From NCBI GenBank assembly GCA_026400395.1, contig JAPLPD010000166.1, positions 1 through 45,410 on the forward strand: a DNA stretch of 45,410 nt, given 5' to 3'. Every line of letters starts with the position of its first letter. Positions within the stretch are counted from its first letter, which is position 1. Of the stretch, positions 1,993 through 28,835 are shown in pieces. The notes under the pieces are model-generated. The model made no database searches, was not told the DNA's origin, and saw only the letters and a program-made list of their open reading frames with translations. This DNA is from Alphaproteobacteria bacterium (GTDB lineage Bacteria; Pseudomonadota; Alphaproteobacteria; Rhizobiales; Xanthobacteraceae). Made by a program: the position numbers and the translations under genes.

Positions 1993-2916
1993 CTACGCCT
2001 TCCACAAATCGCTGAACTGCGTCGCCACCACGTCTTCGTATTTACCGACGCCCTTGGTCAGTCCGACGGCCTGATCGAACTTGCACATGCTGTCGAAAGA
2101 AGCCTTGGAGATCGCCGGGTCGTAGAACGGCAGGTCGCGCTCGACCAGTTCGGCGATCAGGCTCGCCTCGTATTGCGGGAACCACTTCTCGCCGACCTTG
2201 GTGGCGCGCTTCGGATCGGCCTTGAGCGCCTTCTGCGTCTTGACCAGCGCACGCACCGCTGCGGCCGCCTTCTCCGGCTCCTTCTCGACCAGATCGGCTC
2301 GGCTCGCCAGCACCCCGAACGTGTAGCCGCGCAGGCTCGCGGGACCGTCGCCGCGCCGCGCGTCCAGCACCATCGTGCCCAGCCCGCGCTTCACCGCGAC
2401 CTCGGCGCCCATGCCGTTGGCCCAGAAGCCGTCGATCTTGCCCTCTTCCATCGCCTTGGCGGCGTTGACACCGAACGAGACGCTGGCCTGAGCCGGCATC
2501 GGCGGCGGCGCGATCTGCACGCCGTCGCGCTTCGGATCGATGCCGTATTCCTTCAGCATCTCGATCAGACCGATGTCGATGAGCGGCGCCGCGCCGATAC
2601 GCATGCCTTTGACCGCCGCGACGTCGCCGCGCTTCACGTTCAAATCCTTGCGCATGATCAGGAACCAGTAGGTGTGCTGCGCCAGCGCGCCGAGGAACTT
2701 GACGCCGTTCCATTCCGGAAACGCCGTCGGCGCCGAATGGGACGAGCCGCCGACGAAATCCGCCTTGCCGTCACGCAACGCCTCATAGCATTTGCCGACC
2801 GGGTAGATCAGCTCAAGCTCGGCATCGAGGCCCTCTTCCTTGAAGAAGCCCATCTCCACCGCGGCGATGGCGGGGAAGTACGAGTTGGAAACGAGATCGG
2901 GAATGACGACTTTCAT
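1993..2916 (-). CDS. NMT1/SsuA-type substrate-binding protein, no signal peptide
   Basis: A 307-residue periplasmic-binding-protein type 2 fold of the NMT1/SsuA (nitrate, sulfonate, thiamine-precursor) group. It opens with VVIPDLVSNSYFPAIAAVEM and FFKEEGLDAELELIYP, the usual first lobe, and has GKADFVGGSSHSA, the ligand-pocket strand. The ATG at 2914-2916 has a GGAG six bases upstream. No N-terminal signal peptide or lipobox is visible, which is unusual for a binding protein: it is either cytoplasmic, an enzyme-like member of the fold, or has a start outside the called frame. No permease or ATPase for it is adjacent. It lies 70 bases downstream of the DUF2848 gene on the same strand and is probably co-transcribed with it. 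Ligand unknown. Confidence 0.82.
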   Translation of the reverse strand: MKVVIPDLVSNSYFPAIAAVEMGFFKEEGLDAELELIYPVGKCYEALRDGKADFVGGSSHSAPTAFPEWNGVKFLGALAQHTYWFLIMRKDLNVKRGDVAAVKGMRIGAAPLIDIGLIEMLKEYGIDPKRDGVQIAPPPMPAQASVSFGVNAAKAMEEGKIDGFWANGMGAEVAVKRGLGTMVLDARRGDGPASLRGYTFGVLASRADLVEKEPEKAAAAVRALVKTQKALKADPKRATKVGEKWFPQYEASLIAELVERDLPFYDPAISKASFDSMCKFDQAVGLTKGVGKYEDVVATQFSDLWKA

Positions 2917-18029: not shown

Positions 18030-18995
18030 TTACTTCGGCTTGTAGACGATGTCGAACAGCCCCTCGATATCCTTCGTCGTTTTCGCCGCCGCGATGAACT
18101 TGAATTCGAGTGCATCCTGCAATGAGCGTTCGATATCCCTGATTTCACCGATTTGCATGGCCGATTTCGGATAGAAGCCCTCCACCGCCTGCTTGGCGAT
18201 CTCCGGCGTGACCTTCATGTTCTTGGCGAAGATTTCGATCGCCTGCGGATTGCTGTACGCCCAGTCGATCGACTTGTTGATGACCTGCATGAATTTGGTG
18301 ATCGCTTCACGCTTGGTCTTGAGCGAGTTCACGCTGGCGAGGTTCACGCGGATGGTCTGCCCGGCCAGTTCCTTGGCTTCGTTCGCACGGGAGACAATGC
18401 GGATCTTGCCCTCATTGACGTCCTTGAGGACGAACGGCACCACCGACCAGCCGATGTCGATCTGGCCGGTCATGGTCTGGGTGTAGGTGCCGGGCACGCC
18501 GCCGGTCGGCACGGGCTTCGCTTTAGAGCCGGCCTGCTTCAGCAGTGTCAGCAGAATCAGGTTCGATGACGAACCGGGCGACGAGAACGCGATGGTTTTG
18601 CCTTCGCCGGCGTCCTTCAGTGATTTGATCGGGCTGTCCGACTTGACCCACCAGAACAACTCATTGGCGCCGGTCATCTCCGCCGAGATGACACGGTATG
18701 GGGTGGCTTCGCCGCCTTTCACGTAGGCTCCGATCGCCCCGAGGATGCCGTTGGACATAGCGATATCGACGCTGCCGGAGGCGACGGTGGCAATCGTCTG
18801 GGCGCCGCCGTCGGTGTAAAACACCTCGACCTCGAGCCCGGCGTCCTTGAAGAAGCCCGCAGCTTCACCGAATTCGACCCAGGTGCTGTCCCAGAATCCA
18901 CGTTGCGGAATGGCAACCTTGAGCTTTTCCACCGCGAAGCTCACGCTGGTGCCCGCGATAAGGATGGCCAGCACGGCAAGAACCGTCTTCTTCAT
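18030..18995 (-). CDS. NMT1/SsuA-type periplasmic substrate-binding protein
   Basis: A 321-residue binding protein with a clear signal peptide (MKKTVLAVLAILIAGTSVSFA). The mature protein begins with LKVAIPQRGFWDS and AAGFFKDAGLEVEVFYTDGG, followed by the pocket strand GSVDIAMSNGILGAI, the pattern of nitrate/sulfonate/taurine-type receptors. A GGAGGAA site precedes the ATG at 18995. No permease or ATPase gene is adjacent, so it is an orphan receptor that must use a transporter encoded elsewhere. Ligand unknown. Confidence 0.9.
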   Translation of the reverse strand: MKKTVLAVLAILIAGTSVSFAVEKLKVAIPQRGFWDSTWVEFGEAAGFFKDAGLEVEVFYTDGGAQTIATVASGSVDIAMSNGILGAIGAYVKGGEATPYRVISAEMTGANELFWWVKSDSPIKSLKDAGEGKTIAFSSPGSSSNLILLTLLKQAGSKAKPVPTGGVPGTYTQTMTGQIDIGWSVVPFVLKDVNEGKIRIVSRANEAKELAGQTIRVNLASVNSLKTKREAITKFMQVINKSIDWAYSNPQAIEIFAKNMKVTPEIAKQAVEGFYPKSAMQIGEIRDIERSLQDALEFKFIAAAKTTKDIEGLFDIVYKPK

Positions 18996-20000: not shown

Positions 20001-20828
20001 TCAGGTCTCGTCGGCGATCGTCGTCCGCAAAACGCCGATCCGCGAAATCTCCACCTCCAGCACATCGCCGGGCTTCATCCAGAGCGGGGGTTTGCGGCTA
20101 TGGCCGACGCCCTCAGGCGTGCCAGTGGCAATGATGTCGCCCGGATTTAGCTCGGTGAAGTCCGAACAGAAGCTGACGATCTGCTGGCACGAGTAGATCA
20201 ATTTATCTGTTCCGGAGTGCTGCACCTGCTGACCGTTCAGCCGCGTGGTCAGCGTCAGCGCGGCGGGATCGGGAATCTCGTCTGAGGTGACAAGCCATGG
20301 CCCGAGCGGGCCGGTGCCGGGCCAGTTCTTGCCGGATGTGACCGAGAACTTCTGATAGTCGCGCACGCTGCCATCGACGAAGACCGTATAGCCAGCGACG
20401 TGATCGAGCGCACGCTCGATCGGAATGTGACGGCCCCCCTTGCCGATCACCATGGTCAACTCGCCCTCGAAGTCGAAATTATCCGAGAGCCTGGGGCGGA
20501 TCATCACGCCGGCGTGCCCGACCAGAGTGTCGGTGAAGCGGATGAACATGCTCGGCTGCTTCGGCAGTTCGCGGCCGACCTCAGCAGCGTGGGATTTATA
20601 GTTGACCCCGGCGCAAAGGATTTTGTGCGGGTTCGGGATCACCGGCAGGAAACGGATGTCTGACAGCTTGTGGTCGGGCTTCGCGGCGGCCGCCTTGCGC
20701 ATCTCATCGAGAGCGCCGGCTGCCAGCGCATCGCGCAACGAGGCATGGCCTTTCATGGTGACGACGCCATCCCCGACGATGGCTCCGTAACATTCCTTGC
20801 CGCCGGCCATGTAACTCGCGAGTTTCAT
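20001..20828 (-). CDS. Fumarylacetoacetate hydrolase family protein
   Basis: A 275-residue enzyme of the FAA-hydrolase fold. Diagnostic blocks are KILCAGVNYKSHAAEVGREL, the metal-binding DNFDFEGELTMVIGK (Glu-x-Glu), VFVDGSVRDYQ (Asp), and the end DIIATGTPEGVGHSRKPP. Family members cleave C-C bonds of acylpyruvates or hydrate/isomerise ring-fission products in aromatic degradation, using Mg or Mn. The start at 20828 follows AGGAG with a six-base spacer; a longer frame to 20879 lacks this. It is downstream of a dihydroxyphthalate-decarboxylase-like gene on the same strand, a context consistent with aromatic catabolism. Confidence 0.92.
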   Translation of the reverse strand: MKLASYMAGGKECYGAIVGDGVVTMKGHASLRDALAAGALDEMRKAAAAKPDHKLSDIRFLPVIPNPHKILCAGVNYKSHAAEVGRELPKQPSMFIRFTDTLVGHAGVMIRPRLSDNFDFEGELTMVIGKGGRHIPIERALDHVAGYTVFVDGSVRDYQKFSVTSGKNWPGTGPLGPWLVTSDEIPDPAALTLTTRLNGQQVQHSGTDKLIYSCQQIVSFCSDFTELNPGDIIATGTPEGVGHSRKPPLWMKPGDVLEVEISRIGVLRTTIADET

Positions 20829-20936
20829 CGGGCGCTCCTGCAGTCGCATTTCTCGGCCGACCCAGCTGCGCCGGCCCATCTTGAGCAGTCTTTGTTGGGT
20901 ATGACCGAACGCCGGCCCCGCTTTTCAAGTCCGGCC

Positions 20937-21932
20937 CTAATGGGTCATCTCGTGGATCTGCCGCACCGGCACAAACAAGTCGTCGACTTTGGGCGCCTTG
21001 GCGATCACGCCCTGCTCTTCGAGATAGCGCACCAGGGCGTTGAGGGTCGGCCGGTTGGCTTCGATGCCGTAGGGCCACGGATCGCCGCCGAACACCGCGT
21101 CGATCTGGTCCATTTCCTCGGTCATCCACGGCAGCATGTAACGAAGCGTCCCGCGATACTTCATTTTCTTCAGCGCAAGATTCTTGGACTGGTTCAGCGC
21201 GTGATAGAGGGCAGACGCAACGAACGGATGCTTCTCGTGCACATCGCGGCGGATCACCACGGTGTGCATGATCGGGAAAATCTTGGTGCGGTTGTAGTAG
21301 TCGATCTCGGCGGAGCGATAATCCGGATAGAGCCGAACGATATCGGGATTCCTGCCGAATGCCTCGGGGACGCCAGTACCGATGATCGCCTGCAATTCGC
21401 CGTCCTCCAGCATCTTGCTCATGGATTTGCCGGACGTGTTGGCGCTGATCGACATCTTTTTGGCGGTCGGCAGGATGGTCGGATTGCCATGGGCTTTGGC
21501 GCTGTTGATGTCGCCCTCGACCCATTCGTTCTTGGAGAAGTCGATACCGTACTCGTCGCTGAGCAGACCGCGAATGAAGATCGCCGCCGTCATGGTGTAG
21601 AGCGGCACGCCGATGCGCTTGCCCTCAAGCTCCTTGGGCGATTTGATGTACTTCTTGTTGATGAAGATGAAGCTGTGCCGGAACACCCGCGACGCGAACA
21701 CCGGAATGGCAACCAGCGGGCAATTGCCGGCGACGAAGCGGGAGACATACTCGGAGCTGGAGAATTCCGCGGAGTCGAATTCGAGGCCCGCCGCCATGCG
21801 GTCGAAGATATTGCGCGGATTGTCGTCCATCAGGAAGTTTAGATCGACGCCATCGACCCGCACCTCGCCGGTGTGGAGCGCGAGCATGCGGTCGTAGAGT
21901 CCGCAGGCGAAGGTGAGCGGCAGTTTCGACAT
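20937..21932 (-). CDS. 4,5-dihydroxyphthalate decarboxylase-like / PBP2-fold protein (copy A)
   Basis: A 331-residue protein without signal peptide, starting MSKLPLTFACGLYDRMLAL. It shares with copy B (starting at 22107) the blocks YDRM/YLHM near the start, PVFASRVFRHSFIFIN, GKRIGVPLYTMTA, YNRTKIFPIMHTVVIRRDV and DDPWPYGI-like GGDPWPYGI. These are features of the 4,5-dihydroxyphthalate decarboxylase (Pht5) family, a PBP2-fold enzyme group often annotated as ABC receptors. The lack of a signal peptide favours a cytoplasmic enzyme. Expected role: decarboxylation in phthalate-type aromatic degradation, or a related reaction. The frame runs to 22034 upstream, but the conserved N-terminus begins at 21932. 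Confidence 0.83.
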   Translation of the reverse strand: MSKLPLTFACGLYDRMLALHTGEVRVDGVDLNFLMDDNPRNIFDRMAAGLEFDSAEFSSSEYVSRFVAGNCPLVAIPVFASRVFRHSFIFINKKYIKSPKELEGKRIGVPLYTMTAAIFIRGLLSDEYGIDFSKNEWVEGDINSAKAHGNPTILPTAKKMSISANTSGKSMSKMLEDGELQAIIGTGVPEAFGRNPDIVRLYPDYRSAEIDYYNRTKIFPIMHTVVIRRDVHEKHPFVASALYHALNQSKNLALKKMKYRGTLRYMLPWMTEEMDQIDAVFGGDPWPYGIEANRPTLNALVRYLEEQGVIAKAPKVDDLFVPVRQIHEMTH

Positions 21933-21994
21933 TTCCAACCCTATCGTTCTCGTTTTGAGGTTCGCAGTGTAACAGGTGACCGCCGATCGGGAAG

Positions 21995-22007
21995 CATGAC
22001 AGTCATG
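21995..22007. promoter_or_regulatory. Perfect palindrome in the divergent promoter region
   Basis: CATGAC-A-GTCATG, a 13-base perfect inverted repeat in the 174-base gap between two divergent paralogous genes. The position is right for an operator controlling both; no regulator gene is adjacent, so the binding protein is unknown. Confidence 0.4.
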
Positions 22008-22106
22008 TCCCGGTCTTGTGCCCCCGATCCGCATATTGCTCTATAGAAAGCAGCGGTGGCGGCCCGCCACCGGGTTGGGCGCGCCTCGCGCCAGGAATGT
22101 AGAACG

Positions 22107-23102
22107 ATGTCCGACCTTCGCCTGACCTTCGCCATCGGCGACTATCTGCACATGCGCGAGTTGACGCTCGGCCGGGTCAAGCCGGAAGGCATCGACCTCA
22201 CCGTTCTGACGCTCCCGCTGGAGACCATCGCGTACCGGTTCCTGGCCACCTATGAGTGGGAGGTTTCGGAATTCTCGATGGCGACCTATTGCACGATGGT
22301 GGCTAACGGCAACGCACCGATGGTCGGACTGCCTGTGTTTCCGTCCCGCGTGTTTCGGCATGGTGCGATCTTCGTGCGCGAAGATTCACCGATCAAGACC
22401 GGTGCCGACCTCAAGGGCAAACGGATCGGCATCCCGCAATGGACGCAGACCGCCGTCACCTATGTGCGGGGCTGGCTTCAGCACGACGCCGGCGTGCCGC
22501 TGACGTCGATCGACTGGGTTCAGGCCGGCGTGAACGATGCCGGCCGAAAGGAGATGACAACGTTCGAATTGCCGTCCGGCTACCGGCTGACCAGCATGCC
22601 CGACAACAATCTCGGCCAGTTGCTGGTCGATGGCGACATCGACGCGGTGATCTCGGCACGGCCGCCCAATGTCTTCCTTGACGGCAAGCACGGGATCAAG
22701 CGGCTCATGCCCGACTATCGGGCGCAGGAAGAGGCGTATTTCCGCAAGACCGGGATTTTCCCGATCATGCATCTCGTGGTCATGCGCCGCGACGCTTACG
22801 AGGCCAACCGCTGGATCGCGCGCAACCTGATGGACGCCTTCGAGAAAGCCAAGCGCGCGTGCCTGCCGGAGCTATATCAAGGCGGAACGTCATTCCTGCC
22901 AGTCGCCTGGGGCTATGACCACGCCGAGCAGACCAACCGGATGATGTTTCCCACTGACGATCCTTGGCCGTACGGCATCAAGAACAACCTCAAGACACTG
23001 GAGCCGTTTCTCACCTTTTGCCACGAGCAGGGCGTTACCAAGCGCAAGCTCACCGTGGAGGAGTTGTTTCCAAAGGAAGTCGGTTTCGAACTGAAAATCT
23101 GA
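22107..23102 (+). CDS. 4,5-dihydroxyphthalate decarboxylase-like / PBP2-fold protein (copy B)
   Basis: Also 331 residues and signal-free. It starts MSDLRLTFAIGDYLHMREL at the ATG 22107, with AGGA upstream; the frame opens at 22056 but the family start is here. Shared blocks with copy A are GLPVFPSRVFRHGAIFV, GKRIGIPQWTQTAVTY, FRKTGIFPIMHLVVMRRDA and TDDPWPYGIKNN. The equal length and back-to-back arrangement point to an old duplication. The family reaction is decarboxylation of 4,5-dihydroxyphthalate to protocatechuate, but substrate specificity is not deducible. The GST gene starts 44 bases downstream and may be co-transcribed. Confidence 0.84.
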   Translation: MSDLRLTFAIGDYLHMRELTLGRVKPEGIDLTVLTLPLETIAYRFLATYEWEVSEFSMATYCTMVANGNAPMVGLPVFPSRVFRHGAIFVREDSPIKTGADLKGKRIGIPQWTQTAVTYVRGWLQHDAGVPLTSIDWVQAGVNDAGRKEMTTFELPSGYRLTSMPDNNLGQLLVDGDIDAVISARPPNVFLDGKHGIKRLMPDYRAQEEAYFRKTGIFPIMHLVVMRRDAYEANRWIARNLMDAFEKAKRACLPELYQGGTSFLPVAWGYDHAEQTNRMMFPTDDPWPYGIKNNLKTLEPFLTFCHEQGVTKRKLTVEELFPKEVGFELKI

Positions 23103-23146: not shown

Positions 23147-23941
23147 ATGGCGCTCGCGCTCTATCATAACGACATGTCGAGCTGCGCGCAGAAGGTGCGG
23201 CTGATGTTGGCCGAGAAGGGCCTCGAATGGGAAAGCCGTCATCTCGACCTCCGCGCCGGCGAGCACCAGAAGGATTGGTACATCAAGCTTAACCCGCGCG
23301 CGGTGGTGCCAACACTGATCGACGGCGACATTGTCGTTCCGGAATCCAACGTCATCAACGAATATCTCGATGAGCGTTTTCCCGATCAGCCGCGGAAGCC
23401 TGCCGATCCGTTCGGCCGCGCCAGGATGCGGCTGTGGACCAAGCAGCTCGTCGAAGGCGTGCACGACGCGGGGATCGCCGTGCTCAGCTTCGCGCTGGCA
23501 TTCCGCCACCAGTACCTGACCAAGGGCGAGGCCGGCGCCGCGATGCTGGAAAGCATCCCCGATCCGATCAAACGCGAACGCCGCCGCGATGTGATCGAGA
23601 AGGGCCTCGACTCGCCGTTCTTCAAGATCGCAGTGGACCGGCTGCTGACGCTCTATCGAGACATGGACCAGACGCTCGCCAGCCATCCGTGGCTCGCCGG
23701 CGACAGCTACAGCATCGCCGACGCGGCGTTCACGCCCTACATCGTGCGGCTCGACCATCTCGACGTCATGGGACTCCTCGATTCGACGCCGCGGACCGCG
23801 GACTGGTATCGCCGGATCAAGGCCCGGCCGAGCTTTGACGCCGCCATCGTGCGCTGGGAGAACGCCAAGTATCTCGAACTGATGAAACGCCAGGGCCGGG
23901 AAAACTGGCCCAAGATCAAAGAGATCGTGGCCGCTCACTGA
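23147..23941 (+). CDS. Glutathione S-transferase family protein
   Basis: A 264-residue GST-like protein. The N-terminal thioredoxin-like domain is LALYHNDMSSCAQKVRLML (Ser/Cys at the catalytic position), then NPRAVVPTLIDGD with the cis-Pro, and ESNVINEYLDERFPD with the glutathione-binding Glu-Ser. The C-terminal helical domain contains WLAGDSYSIADAAFTPYI. Length is a little above the usual 200-230 because of an extended C-terminal domain. In aromatic catabolic clusters such proteins serve as isomerases, ether-cleaving or dehalogenating enzymes; the adjacent dihydroxyphthalate-type gene makes such a role possible. The ATG at 23147 is chosen because the fold begins there. Confidence 0.92.
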   Translation: MALALYHNDMSSCAQKVRLMLAEKGLEWESRHLDLRAGEHQKDWYIKLNPRAVVPTLIDGDIVVPESNVINEYLDERFPDQPRKPADPFGRARMRLWTKQLVEGVHDAGIAVLSFALAFRHQYLTKGEAGAAMLESIPDPIKRERRRDVIEKGLDSPFFKIAVDRLLTLYRDMDQTLASHPWLAGDSYSIADAAFTPYIVRLDHLDVMGLLDSTPRTADWYRRIKARPSFDAAIVRWENAKYLELMKRQGRENWPKIKEIVAAH

Positions 23942-26644: not shown

Positions 26645-28027
26645 ATGGCAATGTACAGCGCGACCATCGGAGTTCGCCGTTACCCGTTTGGCGATCTCGC
26701 GACCCTGCTGGCCAAAGCATCGCCGTTGCGGAGCGGCGACCAGTTGGCCGGCCTGGCCGCCGAGAGCGGCGAGGAGCGGGTCGCCGCGCAATTCGTCTTG
26801 GCCGATGTGCCGCTCGCATCGCTCCTTCACCAGCATGTCATCGCTTACGAAACCGACGAGGTGACACGCCTTATCGTCGATAGCCACGACCGCGCCGCCT
26901 TTGCTCCCATCGCGTCGCAGACCGTCGGCGAATTCCGCGATTGGCTATTGTCGGACGAAGCCACAACGCCCGCCCTCGCCGCATTGGCGCCCGGCGTCAT
27001 GCCGGAGATGGCCGCCGCGGTGTGCAAGATCAGCGCCCTGCAAGACTTGATGGTGATGGCGGCAAAATGCACCGTGGCCAAAGCGTTTCGCAGCACGGTC
27101 GGCCTGCCCGGCCGCCTCTCGGTGCGATTGCAGCCGAACCATCCGACCGATGATGTCCGTGGTATCGCAGCGAGTATCCTCGACGGCCTGCTGCTCGGCG
27201 CGGGCGATGCGGTCATCGGCATCAATCCCGCGACCGACAGCCCCGATCGGACGCACCGCCTGCTTTCGATGCTCGACGACATCCGGATCAAGCTCGACAT
27301 CCCGACGCAGTCCTGCGTGCTCGCGCATGTCACGACAACATTGGAATTGATACGCAAAGGCTCACCAGTGGACCTGGTGTTTCAGTCGATTGCCGGCACC
27401 GAAGCCGCCAACAAGAGCTTCGGCATCAATCTCGCCCTGCTCAAAGAGGCGCGGGAGGCGGCGCTGGCGCTTCGGCGTGGCACCGTCGGCACTGACGTCA
27501 TGTATTTCGAAACGGGTCAGGGCAGCGCACTTTCGGCCAACGCGCATTGTGGGGTCGATCAGCAAACACTCGAGGCGCGCGCCTACGCCGTGGCGCGTGC
27601 GTTCAAGCCGCTACTGGTCAACACCGTCGTCGGCTTCATCGGCCCGGAGTATTTGTTCGACGGCAAGCAAATCACCCGCGCCGGCCTGGAGGACCATTTC
27701 TGCGGCAAGCTGATGGGCGTGCCGATGGGCGTCGATGTTTGCTACACCAACCACGCCGAGGCCGACCAGGATGACATGGACGCGCTGCTCGCTCTGCTGG
27801 TCGCCGCCGGCGTCAACTTCATCATGGGCGTCCCCGGCGCCGACGACGTGATGCTCGGCTATCAGAGCACGTCATTCCATGACGCCCTCGCCATGCGCGA
27901 TCTGTTCGGCCGGAAGCCCGCGCCGGAATTCGAGGCATGGCTTCAACGACAGGGGCTGATCGATAGCTCCGGCCACATCCGGCCACTCGAATCGCCTGGC
28001 CGTTTCCGCGCGCTGTTGACGGGCTGA
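26645..28027 (+). CDS. eutB: Ethanolamine ammonia-lyase large subunit
   Basis: A 460-residue EutB, close to the usual 450-465. Recognised by KASPLRSGDQLAGLAAESGEE-type opening, CKISALQDLMVMAAKC, LPGRLSVRLQPNHPTDD, GINPATDS, FQSIAGTEAANKSFGIN, and the end VNFIMGVPGADDVMLGYQST. With EutC it converts ethanolamine to acetaldehyde and ammonia using adenosylcobalamin. ATG codons occur at 26645 and 26651; the second (MYSATIG) aligns better with family N-termini. Only 85 bases separate it from the divergent TPP gene, too little for a full cobalamin riboswitch. No eutE, shell or permease genes are nearby, so this is the simple, compartment-free type. Confidence 0.96.
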   Translation: MAMYSATIGVRRYPFGDLATLLAKASPLRSGDQLAGLAAESGEERVAAQFVLADVPLASLLHQHVIAYETDEVTRLIVDSHDRAAFAPIASQTVGEFRDWLLSDEATTPALAALAPGVMPEMAAAVCKISALQDLMVMAAKCTVAKAFRSTVGLPGRLSVRLQPNHPTDDVRGIAASILDGLLLGAGDAVIGINPATDSPDRTHRLLSMLDDIRIKLDIPTQSCVLAHVTTTLELIRKGSPVDLVFQSIAGTEAANKSFGINLALLKEAREAALALRRGTVGTDVMYFETGQGSALSANAHCGVDQQTLEARAYAVARAFKPLLVNTVVGFIGPEYLFDGKQITRAGLEDHFCGKLMGVPMGVDVCYTNHAEADQDDMDALLALLVAAGVNFIMGVPGADDVMLGYQSTSFHDALAMRDLFGRKPAPEFEAWLQRQGLIDSSGHIRPLESPGRFRALLTG

Positions 28028-28031
28028 GCCG

Positions 28032-28835
28032 ATGTCCGAAGACCGCTCCCTGCTCGACGATGAAATGTGGTCCGATCTGCGCCGACTGACGGCCGCGCGC
28101 ATCGGGCTGCGCCGCACCGGCGCATCGCTTGCGACCGGGCCGCTGCTTGATTTCAAGCTGGCCCACGCCCGCGCGCGCGATGCCGTGCATGAGCCGCTCG
28201 ATGAAGCGCGCTTGATAGCCGAACTCGCAGGATTGGGACTCGAAACCATCGCCTCGGCGAGCGCCGCTGAAAGCCGAAAGCAGTTTCTGATGCGTCCCGA
28301 CCTCGGCCGCCGTCTCGCAGCACACTCCGAGCAGATGCTGGCATCGCACGCCGCCCGCTACGATGTGGCGTTCGTAATCGCCGACGGCCTATCGGCGCGC
28401 GCCGTTCAACAACACGCGGCGCACGTTCTCGGCTTCGTTGTACCGATGCTGCGCGATGAAGGCTGGCGCATCGCTCCGCTGGTCATCGTTCGTCACGGGC
28501 GGGTCGCGACCGGCGACGCCATCGCCACATTGCTCGGCGCCGACTGCGCCGCGGTTCTGATCGGCGAGCGTCCGGGCCTATCGGCGCCCGACAGCATGGG
28601 CGCCTATCTGACATGGCAGCCCGCCCCGCACACCACCGACGCGGACCGCAACTGCATCTCCAACATCCGGCCCGATGGGATCAAATACTCCGAAGCCGCC
28701 CACAAGCTTGCCCACATGCTGCGTGCCATGCGCGCACGGCGCATATCGGGCGTGCAACTCAAAGATGATTCGGATCGGCTGCCGGATGGCGCTAACATCG
28801 AAGCCGCCATTCCTGATGCCGGAAAACAATTATGA
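28032..28835 (+). CDS. eutC: Ethanolamine ammonia-lyase small subunit
   Basis: A 267-residue EutC. Conserved blocks are RIGLRRTGASLATGPLLDFK, LAHARARDAVHEPLD, FVIADGLSARAVQQHA and ERPGLSAPDSMGAYLTW, ending with RNCISNIRPDG and EAAHKLAHML. It binds adenosylcobalamin together with EutB. The start is four bases after the eutB stop. Its last codons overlap the next gene by ATGA, so all three are translated from one message. Confidence 0.96.
   Translation: MSEDRSLLDDEMWSDLRRLTAARIGLRRTGASLATGPLLDFKLAHARARDAVHEPLDEARLIAELAGLGLETIASASAAESRKQFLMRPDLGRRLAAHSEQMLASHAARYDVAFVIADGLSARAVQQHAAHVLGFVVPMLRDEGWRIAPLVIVRHGRVATGDAIATLLGADCAAVLIGERPGLSAPDSMGAYLTWQPAPHTTDADRNCISNIRPDGIKYSEAAHKLAHMLRAMRARRISGVQLKDDSDRLPDGANIEAAIPDAGKQL

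Follow-up and report, generated by a model that had tools for sequence, protein, structure and literature searches.

Two genes, each encoding 331 residues, stand back to back in the window, by which we mean the whole analyzed stretch of 45,410 nucleotides; it is the entire contig C246 of a genome (G000) of 5.3 Mb that is 99% complete. The arrangement raises the question of whether the two proteins are enzymes or transport receptors, whether they belong together by origin or by function, and whether the palindrome between their start codons controls both genes. When the frames were read again, the divergent orientation, the 331 codons of each gene and the FPIMH and DPWPYGI blocks in both were found as the preliminary description had given them. 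The pair is laid out as follows.

20937 to 21932, minus strand: gene 1, 331 amino acids, dihydroxyphthalate-decarboxylase-like protein of the PBP2 fold, predicted to be a cytoplasmic enzyme
21933 to 22106, no strand: spacer between both start codons, 174 bp, aligned with eight equivalent spacers
22107 to 23102, plus strand: gene 2, 331 amino acids, predicted dihydroxyphthalate-decarboxylase-like PBP2-fold enzyme of another subfamily (Leu14-His15 for Asp-Arg)

The two proteins are 35% identical in the multiple alignment and 38% identical in a pairwise search. Their equal length is a coincidence, because the orthologues of gene 1 vary from 324 to 331 residues.

Family, conserved residues and predicted localization

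Among solved structures, the sole strong match to each gene in the sequence search was PDB 9jp7, a 4,5-dihydroxyphthalate decarboxylase. The match ran end to end over residues 1-322 in both cases (E 2e-67 for gene 1 and 1e-59 for gene 2), and a 25-member family profile matched 9jp7 with an E of 2e-128. In the Pfam scan, both genes matched NMT1/THI5 barely over the cut-off, and gene 2 also matched a phosphonate-binding model below the cut-off. The NCBIfam scan of the two genes gave nothing above the curated cut-offs.

AlphaFold2 models of both proteins were built from 4-row alignments. The pLDDT and pTM were 75.5 and 0.80 for gene 1 and 67.1 and 0.69 for gene 2, in which the loop of interest (residues 12-24) had a pLDDT below 50. 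Foldseek ranked 9jp7 first for both models (E 2e-32 for gene 1 and 3e-32 for gene 2). With VIA-align, the gene 1 model was superposed on 9jp7 with a Z of 36.0 and an rmsd of 2.5 over 317 aligned residues; the lower matches were SsuA (Z 19.5), chorismate dehydratase (7an7; 17.3) and DszB (13.6).

We aligned 42 rows, comprising copies from the genome, orthologues from relatives, proteins from three plasmid loci, sequences from two distant contigs and 9jp7. The alignment takes in 15 of the 16 family copies of G000 (L015 on contig C139 was left out), and a search of contigs for the family yielded two distant relatives only. Met1, Glu56, Gly104, Gly178 and His223 are invariant in all 42 rows, including both genes and 9jp7, and Arg82, His86, Thr115, Asp284, Tyr288 and Asn293 are also kept by both genes. 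Thus, inspection of the putative active-site residues found the family-invariant polar residues intact in gene 1 and gene 2 alike.

Three positions set the gene 2 orthologues apart. All four gene 2 orthologues carry Leu14-His15, whereas the other 38 rows have Asp14 (35/38) and Arg15 (32/38); at position 60, the gene 2 orthologues have Ala, whereas 34 of the 38 others have Ser60. In the model, these positions lie just past the first and third strands. It is in these places that PBP2 proteins bind their ligand. The substrate of gene 2 is therefore likely to differ from that of gene 1, as far as alignment and model can indicate. Of the earlier idea of two specificities under one operator, the first part is plausible in view of the Leu-His loop of gene 2, and the second fails because the palindrome is not conserved (see below).

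As a proxy for a leader, and not as a signal-peptide predictor, we used the mean hydropathy of an N-terminal 11-residue stretch. None of the 42 family members reached 2.0 (maximum 1.55), and the same proxy showed no hydrophobic leader when gene 1 was extended upstream as far as possible. In contrast, the receptor encoded at 18030-18995 scored 3.07. A missed signal peptide was therefore rejected for both genes within the reach of this proxy. An NMT1-domain protein of 307 residues encoded elsewhere in the window (1993-2916, minus strand) also has a called N-terminus without a hydrophobic leader (hydropathy 1.46); it is either a cytoplasmic PBP2-fold protein or has a misplaced start.

Homology, fold, invariant residues and the leaderless N-terminus place both proteins in the 4,5-dihydroxyphthalate-decarboxylase-like PBP2 family, in agreement with the first assignment. 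Judged from sequence and models, gene 1 and gene 2 most likely encode cytoplasmic PBP2-fold aromatic-acid decarboxylases. An identity of 35-40% fixes neither the substrate nor the reaction type.

Neighborhood, origin and distribution of the pair

The genes around the pair are given below.

18030 to 18995, minus strand: NMT1-type periplasmic substrate-binding protein with a hydrophobic leader (PF09084, E 1.4e-20)
20001 to 20834, minus strand: FAA-hydrolase-family protein, downstream of gene 1 (PF01557, E 1.8e-63)
23147 to 23941, plus strand: glutathione S-transferase (GST)-like protein, downstream of gene 2 (PF13409/PF02798)

Pfam confirmed the FAA-hydrolase and GST neighbors noticed earlier; the GST-like protein is maiA-like, under the curated cut-off. 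In most congeners, the FAA-hydrolase gene adjoins gene 1 or stays at the gene 1 locus. The order ABC permease, ATPase and second permease beside gene 1, followed by the FAA-hydrolase gene, was found in G002, G004, G005 and G007 and also, outside the genus, in G018. In these five relatives, gene 1 stands at the head of an operon with the importer and FAA-hydrolase genes. An NMT1 receptor with a leader lies near the gene 1 importer units in relatives. The first permease had no match at E <= 1e-50 in G000 or six other congeners; the importer has thus been lost from G000. Of the seven genomes without the importer, five still have gene 1 (G000, G001, G003, G008 and G010). The conserved set of receptor, importer, gene 1 and FAA hydrolase, with the GST gene opposite, looks like a unit for organic-acid uptake and catabolism.

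The aromatic route suggested at first thus holds in part: the neighbors fit organic-acid catabolism, and phthalate itself is not indicated. No homologues of the phthalate Rieske oxygenase or dihydrodiol dehydrogenase were listed on contig C246. Homologues of these two enzymes of pCAR3 occur on other contigs of G000, as do gentisate 1,2-dioxygenases. Since no phthalate pathway genes stand beside the pair, phthalate was rejected as the substrate by context. Near other family copies lie a LigAB-type ring-opening dioxygenase (in L054), an amidohydrolase (in L060) and Mo-hydroxylases (in L052); the dioxygenase and the Mo-hydroxylases, like the aromatic enzymes around the pCAR3 copy (see below), speak for the decarboxylase reading. 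Further along the window (26645-28835, plus strand), EutB/EutC (ethanolamine ammonia-lyase) genes lie between TPP-enzyme and MetE-like genes; G004 (L043) has them at the corresponding position, and they were not seen in G003 (L045) or G002 (L046).

Public records often label proteins of this family as an 'ABC transporter substrate-binding protein', and many of the plasmid relatives carry this annotation, although they are probably enzymes. Together with the marginal NMT1/THI5 match and the importer genes that adjoin gene 1 in relatives, this label is what suggests that both are periplasmic substrate-binding proteins of ABC importers whose export signals are unusual or were missed. We consider this unlikely: the 42 members and the upstream extension of gene 1 show no hydrophobic leader, the cluster already has a leader-bearing receptor at 18030-18995, and gene 1 persists in five genomes without the importer. 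It is very unlikely that gene 1 encodes a ligand sensor of the cytoplasm which modulates the ABC importer in trans, in the manner of the NrtC/CmpC regulatory domain. In five relatives, a cytoplasmic PBP2 protein shares its locus with importer genes, and the fold matches of gene 1 include the regulatory domains of CmpC and NrtC (Z about 16-17); however, 9jp7 is far closer (Z 36), all family-invariant polar residues are retained, and gene 1 is kept where the importer is missing.

A maximum-likelihood tree was calculated from the 42 alignment rows. Gene 1 was placed in a clade of 21 rows (support 100/100). Gene 2 belonged to a different clade (100/99), which also holds another G000 copy and a Paraburkholderia protein. 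The 9jp7 clade (100/100) contains L007, the G000 copy on contig C122, and a Cupriavidus protein; neither gene 1 nor gene 2 fell in it. L016 formed a very long branch. Thus, the expected relationship to the characterized decarboxylase stands at the level of the family, and placement in its clade does not. When the orthologues of gene 1 and of gene 2 were forced together, the AU test rejected the topology (p 3.7e-5); with the wider gene 1 clade, a group named after seeing the tree, p was 0.003. Tree placement and the former test rule out a local duplication as the origin of the pair, and with it the proposal of an enzyme beside a partner that diverged from it in place.

Orthologues were sought at E <= 1e-100 in 10 congeners beside G000. 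Gene 1 orthologues (74-91% identical) were found in eight of them, and gene 2 orthologues (73-78% identical) in three (G004, G006 and G010). The intact divergent pair is present in three of the 11 genomes (G000, G004 and G010). Six have gene 1 without an intact gene 2 (G001, G002, G003, G005, G007 and G008), G006 lacks gene 1 and has gene 2 facing the gene of the FAA hydrolase, and in G009 (80% complete) neither gene was found at this threshold.

Traces of gene 2 were observed in some of the genomes that lack it. G002 retains a degraded C-terminal half (E 1e-52 or better), and G003 has a 16-codon scar in the same place, with 31-32 bits against a maximum of 23.5 over 100 mononucleotide shuffles. 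G001 has a scar that is suggestive at best (19 bits; the maximum for mononucleotide shuffles was 25.8), and no remnant was detectable in G005, G007 or G008. From the remnants in G002 and G003, gene 2 was therefore more widespread formerly, and it has probably been lost on two or more occasions; it is dispensable. An obligate partnership was rejected, as gene 1 occurs without an intact gene 2 in six genomes and gene 2 without gene 1 in one. A hetero-oligomeric enzyme made of an active subunit and a diverged partner would suit genes that are adjacent and divergent in 3/11 congeners, but we give it very little credence, as each gene occurs without the other intact one and both proteins keep the invariant residues.

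The intergenic spacer

The following elements were located between the start codons.

21964 to 21998, minus strand: upstream motif of gene 1, in the sense of gene 1 CATGCTTyCC...CACCTGTTACACTGC, in which TACACT is a -10-like hexamer
21995 to 22007, no strand: palindrome CATGAC-A-GTCATG, most probably without operator function, missing from 8/8 other equivalent spacers
22002 to 22022, plus strand: GTCATGtCCCGGTCTTGTGCC, a decayed REP element from which the palindrome has its right half
22054 to 22072, no strand: perfect inverted repeat (9-nt arms, 1-nt spacer) within the leader of gene 2, resembling a terminator on the minus strand

The palindrome was confirmed at its place in the 174-bp spacer. 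However, it is not beyond chance, because 30 of the 260 successive 174-bp tiles into which the window was divided contain an inverted repeat of the 6+1+6 type, as do 5% of 2000 spacer sequences shuffled by mononucleotide, and because the spacer itself holds a longer 9+1+9 repeat. The conservation of the palindrome, on which its interpretation had been made to depend, was checked in the eight other equivalent spacers, including those of the G004 and G010 pairs, and it was absent from all of them.

Each half of the palindrome can be traced to another element. The REP consensus matched 22002-22022 with a score of 36, which none of 500 mononucleotide shuffles reached (maximum 34). With up to three mismatches, the REP element has 179 matches in G000 versus 14 for the reversed pattern. 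Copies that are intact or nearly so were found in the spacers of G010 (score 62) and G003 (50), and no significant match was found in those of G001, G002, G004, G006, G007 and G008. The left arm of the palindrome overlaps the gene 1 upstream motif. The core of this motif, CTG[TC].?TA[CG]ACTG, is present in eight of the nine spacers, whether gene 2 is present or not. Since it is kept in spacers without gene 2, the motif belongs to gene 1 alone. The promoter scan called no consensus sigma-70 promoter in the spacer; from its sequence, TACACT is a plausible -10 hexamer of a gene 1 promoter. The simplest reading is that a REP element was inserted beside the putative promoter of gene 1 and that the palindrome arose by accident.

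Despite the perfect 6+1+6 repeat between divergent starts, a genuine operator by which a single regulator acts on both genes has next to no probability: non-conservation, the frequency of such repeats in the tiles, the REP-derived right half and the gene 1-only motif speak against it, and no regulator was identified among the scanned immediate neighbors of the pair. The palindromic promoter common to both genes, which the preliminary description had placed here, was accordingly given up.

Proposed function and comparison with known systems

Based on these results, we propose, with a probability of about 0.7, that both proteins are cytoplasmic cofactor-free decarboxylases, that gene 1 belongs to an uptake unit, that gene 2 acts on a different substrate and that the palindrome is non-regulatory. 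A hydroxylated aromatic or heteroaromatic carboxylate would bind in the cleft between the two lobes, which may then close on it. We infer that CO2 would be removed without a cofactor, via protonation of the carboxyl-bearing ring carbon. Conservation makes Glu56 and His223 (numbered as in gene 1) the leading candidates for the acid/base residues; Arg82, His86 and Thr115 are candidates for carboxylate binding. Gene 1 would have its place in an ancestral acid-uptake unit with a periplasmic NMT1 receptor, the ABC importer (lost in G000) and the FAA hydrolase. Gene 2 would be a dispensable member of a different subfamily with an altered pocket loop and probably a different substrate. Each gene probably has a transcript of its own, and the palindrome would play no part in regulation.

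There are precedents for such a reaction. According to a review (PMC13040137), 4,5-dihydroxyphthalate undergoes non-oxidative decarboxylation, which is a precedent from the family. According to a second source (PMC6100217), DszB is cofactor-free and uses proton attack on the aromatic ring, a precedent from the fold. Our literature search found no mechanism paper on 9jp7 and gave nothing further on the wider functions of the family; such papers may exist elsewhere.

The enzyme family is already known, the window pair is ordinary, and its arrangement is unstable within the genus. The point of interest is the expansion of the family in the genus. By the profile (E <= 1e-30), all 11 genus genomes have 7-22 copies (16 in G000), and 33 of the 61 genomes searched have none. 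To our knowledge, no activity has been assigned to any family member within this genus. It is possible, and we advance it only tentatively, that the genus has turned the PBP2 fold into many cytoplasmic lyases, most of them of the sort that is labelled as ABC receptors, each for a different (hetero)aromatic acid and some encoded alongside an importer whose own receptor shares the fold, and that the loop of gene 2 marks an undescribed substrate or reaction. If these proteins are enzymes, a whole set of decarboxylases is overlooked when the aromatic-acid catabolism of these bacteria is annotated, and the paralogues would be useful for mapping how a binding fold turned catalytic.

A second divergent family pair was observed in G000 (L052:8472-15299; G000:C4:16501-23289). 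Its two genes enclose a Mo-hydroxylase operon of three genes (xanthine-dehydrogenase-type) together with a cupin gene. Judged by position, this minus/plus arrangement with a gap of 4.6-6.2 kb is found in 8/11 congeners, the intervening genes having been read in G000 only. This pair is better conserved than the window pair (8/11 versus 3/11).

Among known systems, the NMT1/SsuA/TauA periplasmic receptors have the PBP2 fold and the weak Pfam NMT1 match in common with the window genes, which differ from them in being leaderless. The desulfinase DszB and the chorismate dehydratase MqnA are lyase-type enzymes on the same fold, with 10-16% identity; for the catalytic Cys27 of DszB, no counterpart was identified in the window genes, a comparison made without residue-by-residue alignment. 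The 4,5-dihydroxyphthalate decarboxylase of pCAR3 (Novosphingobium sp. KA1, L063) is 39-40% identical to both window genes. Unlike them, it adjoins a Rieske oxygenase and a Gfo/Idh/MocA dehydrogenase of the dihydrodiol-dehydrogenase type; a nadC-annotated gene (quinolinate phosphoribosyltransferase; L063, 3735-4592) also lies beside these three genes. The enzyme of 9jp7, from Comamonas testosteroni KF-1, has the same fold as the window genes and a full-length identity of 36-38% to them, and it shares the invariant Glu and His, the FPIMH and WPYG blocks and the lack of a leader. It differs in that its closest copy in G000 is the one on contig C122 (67% identical), and not the window genes.
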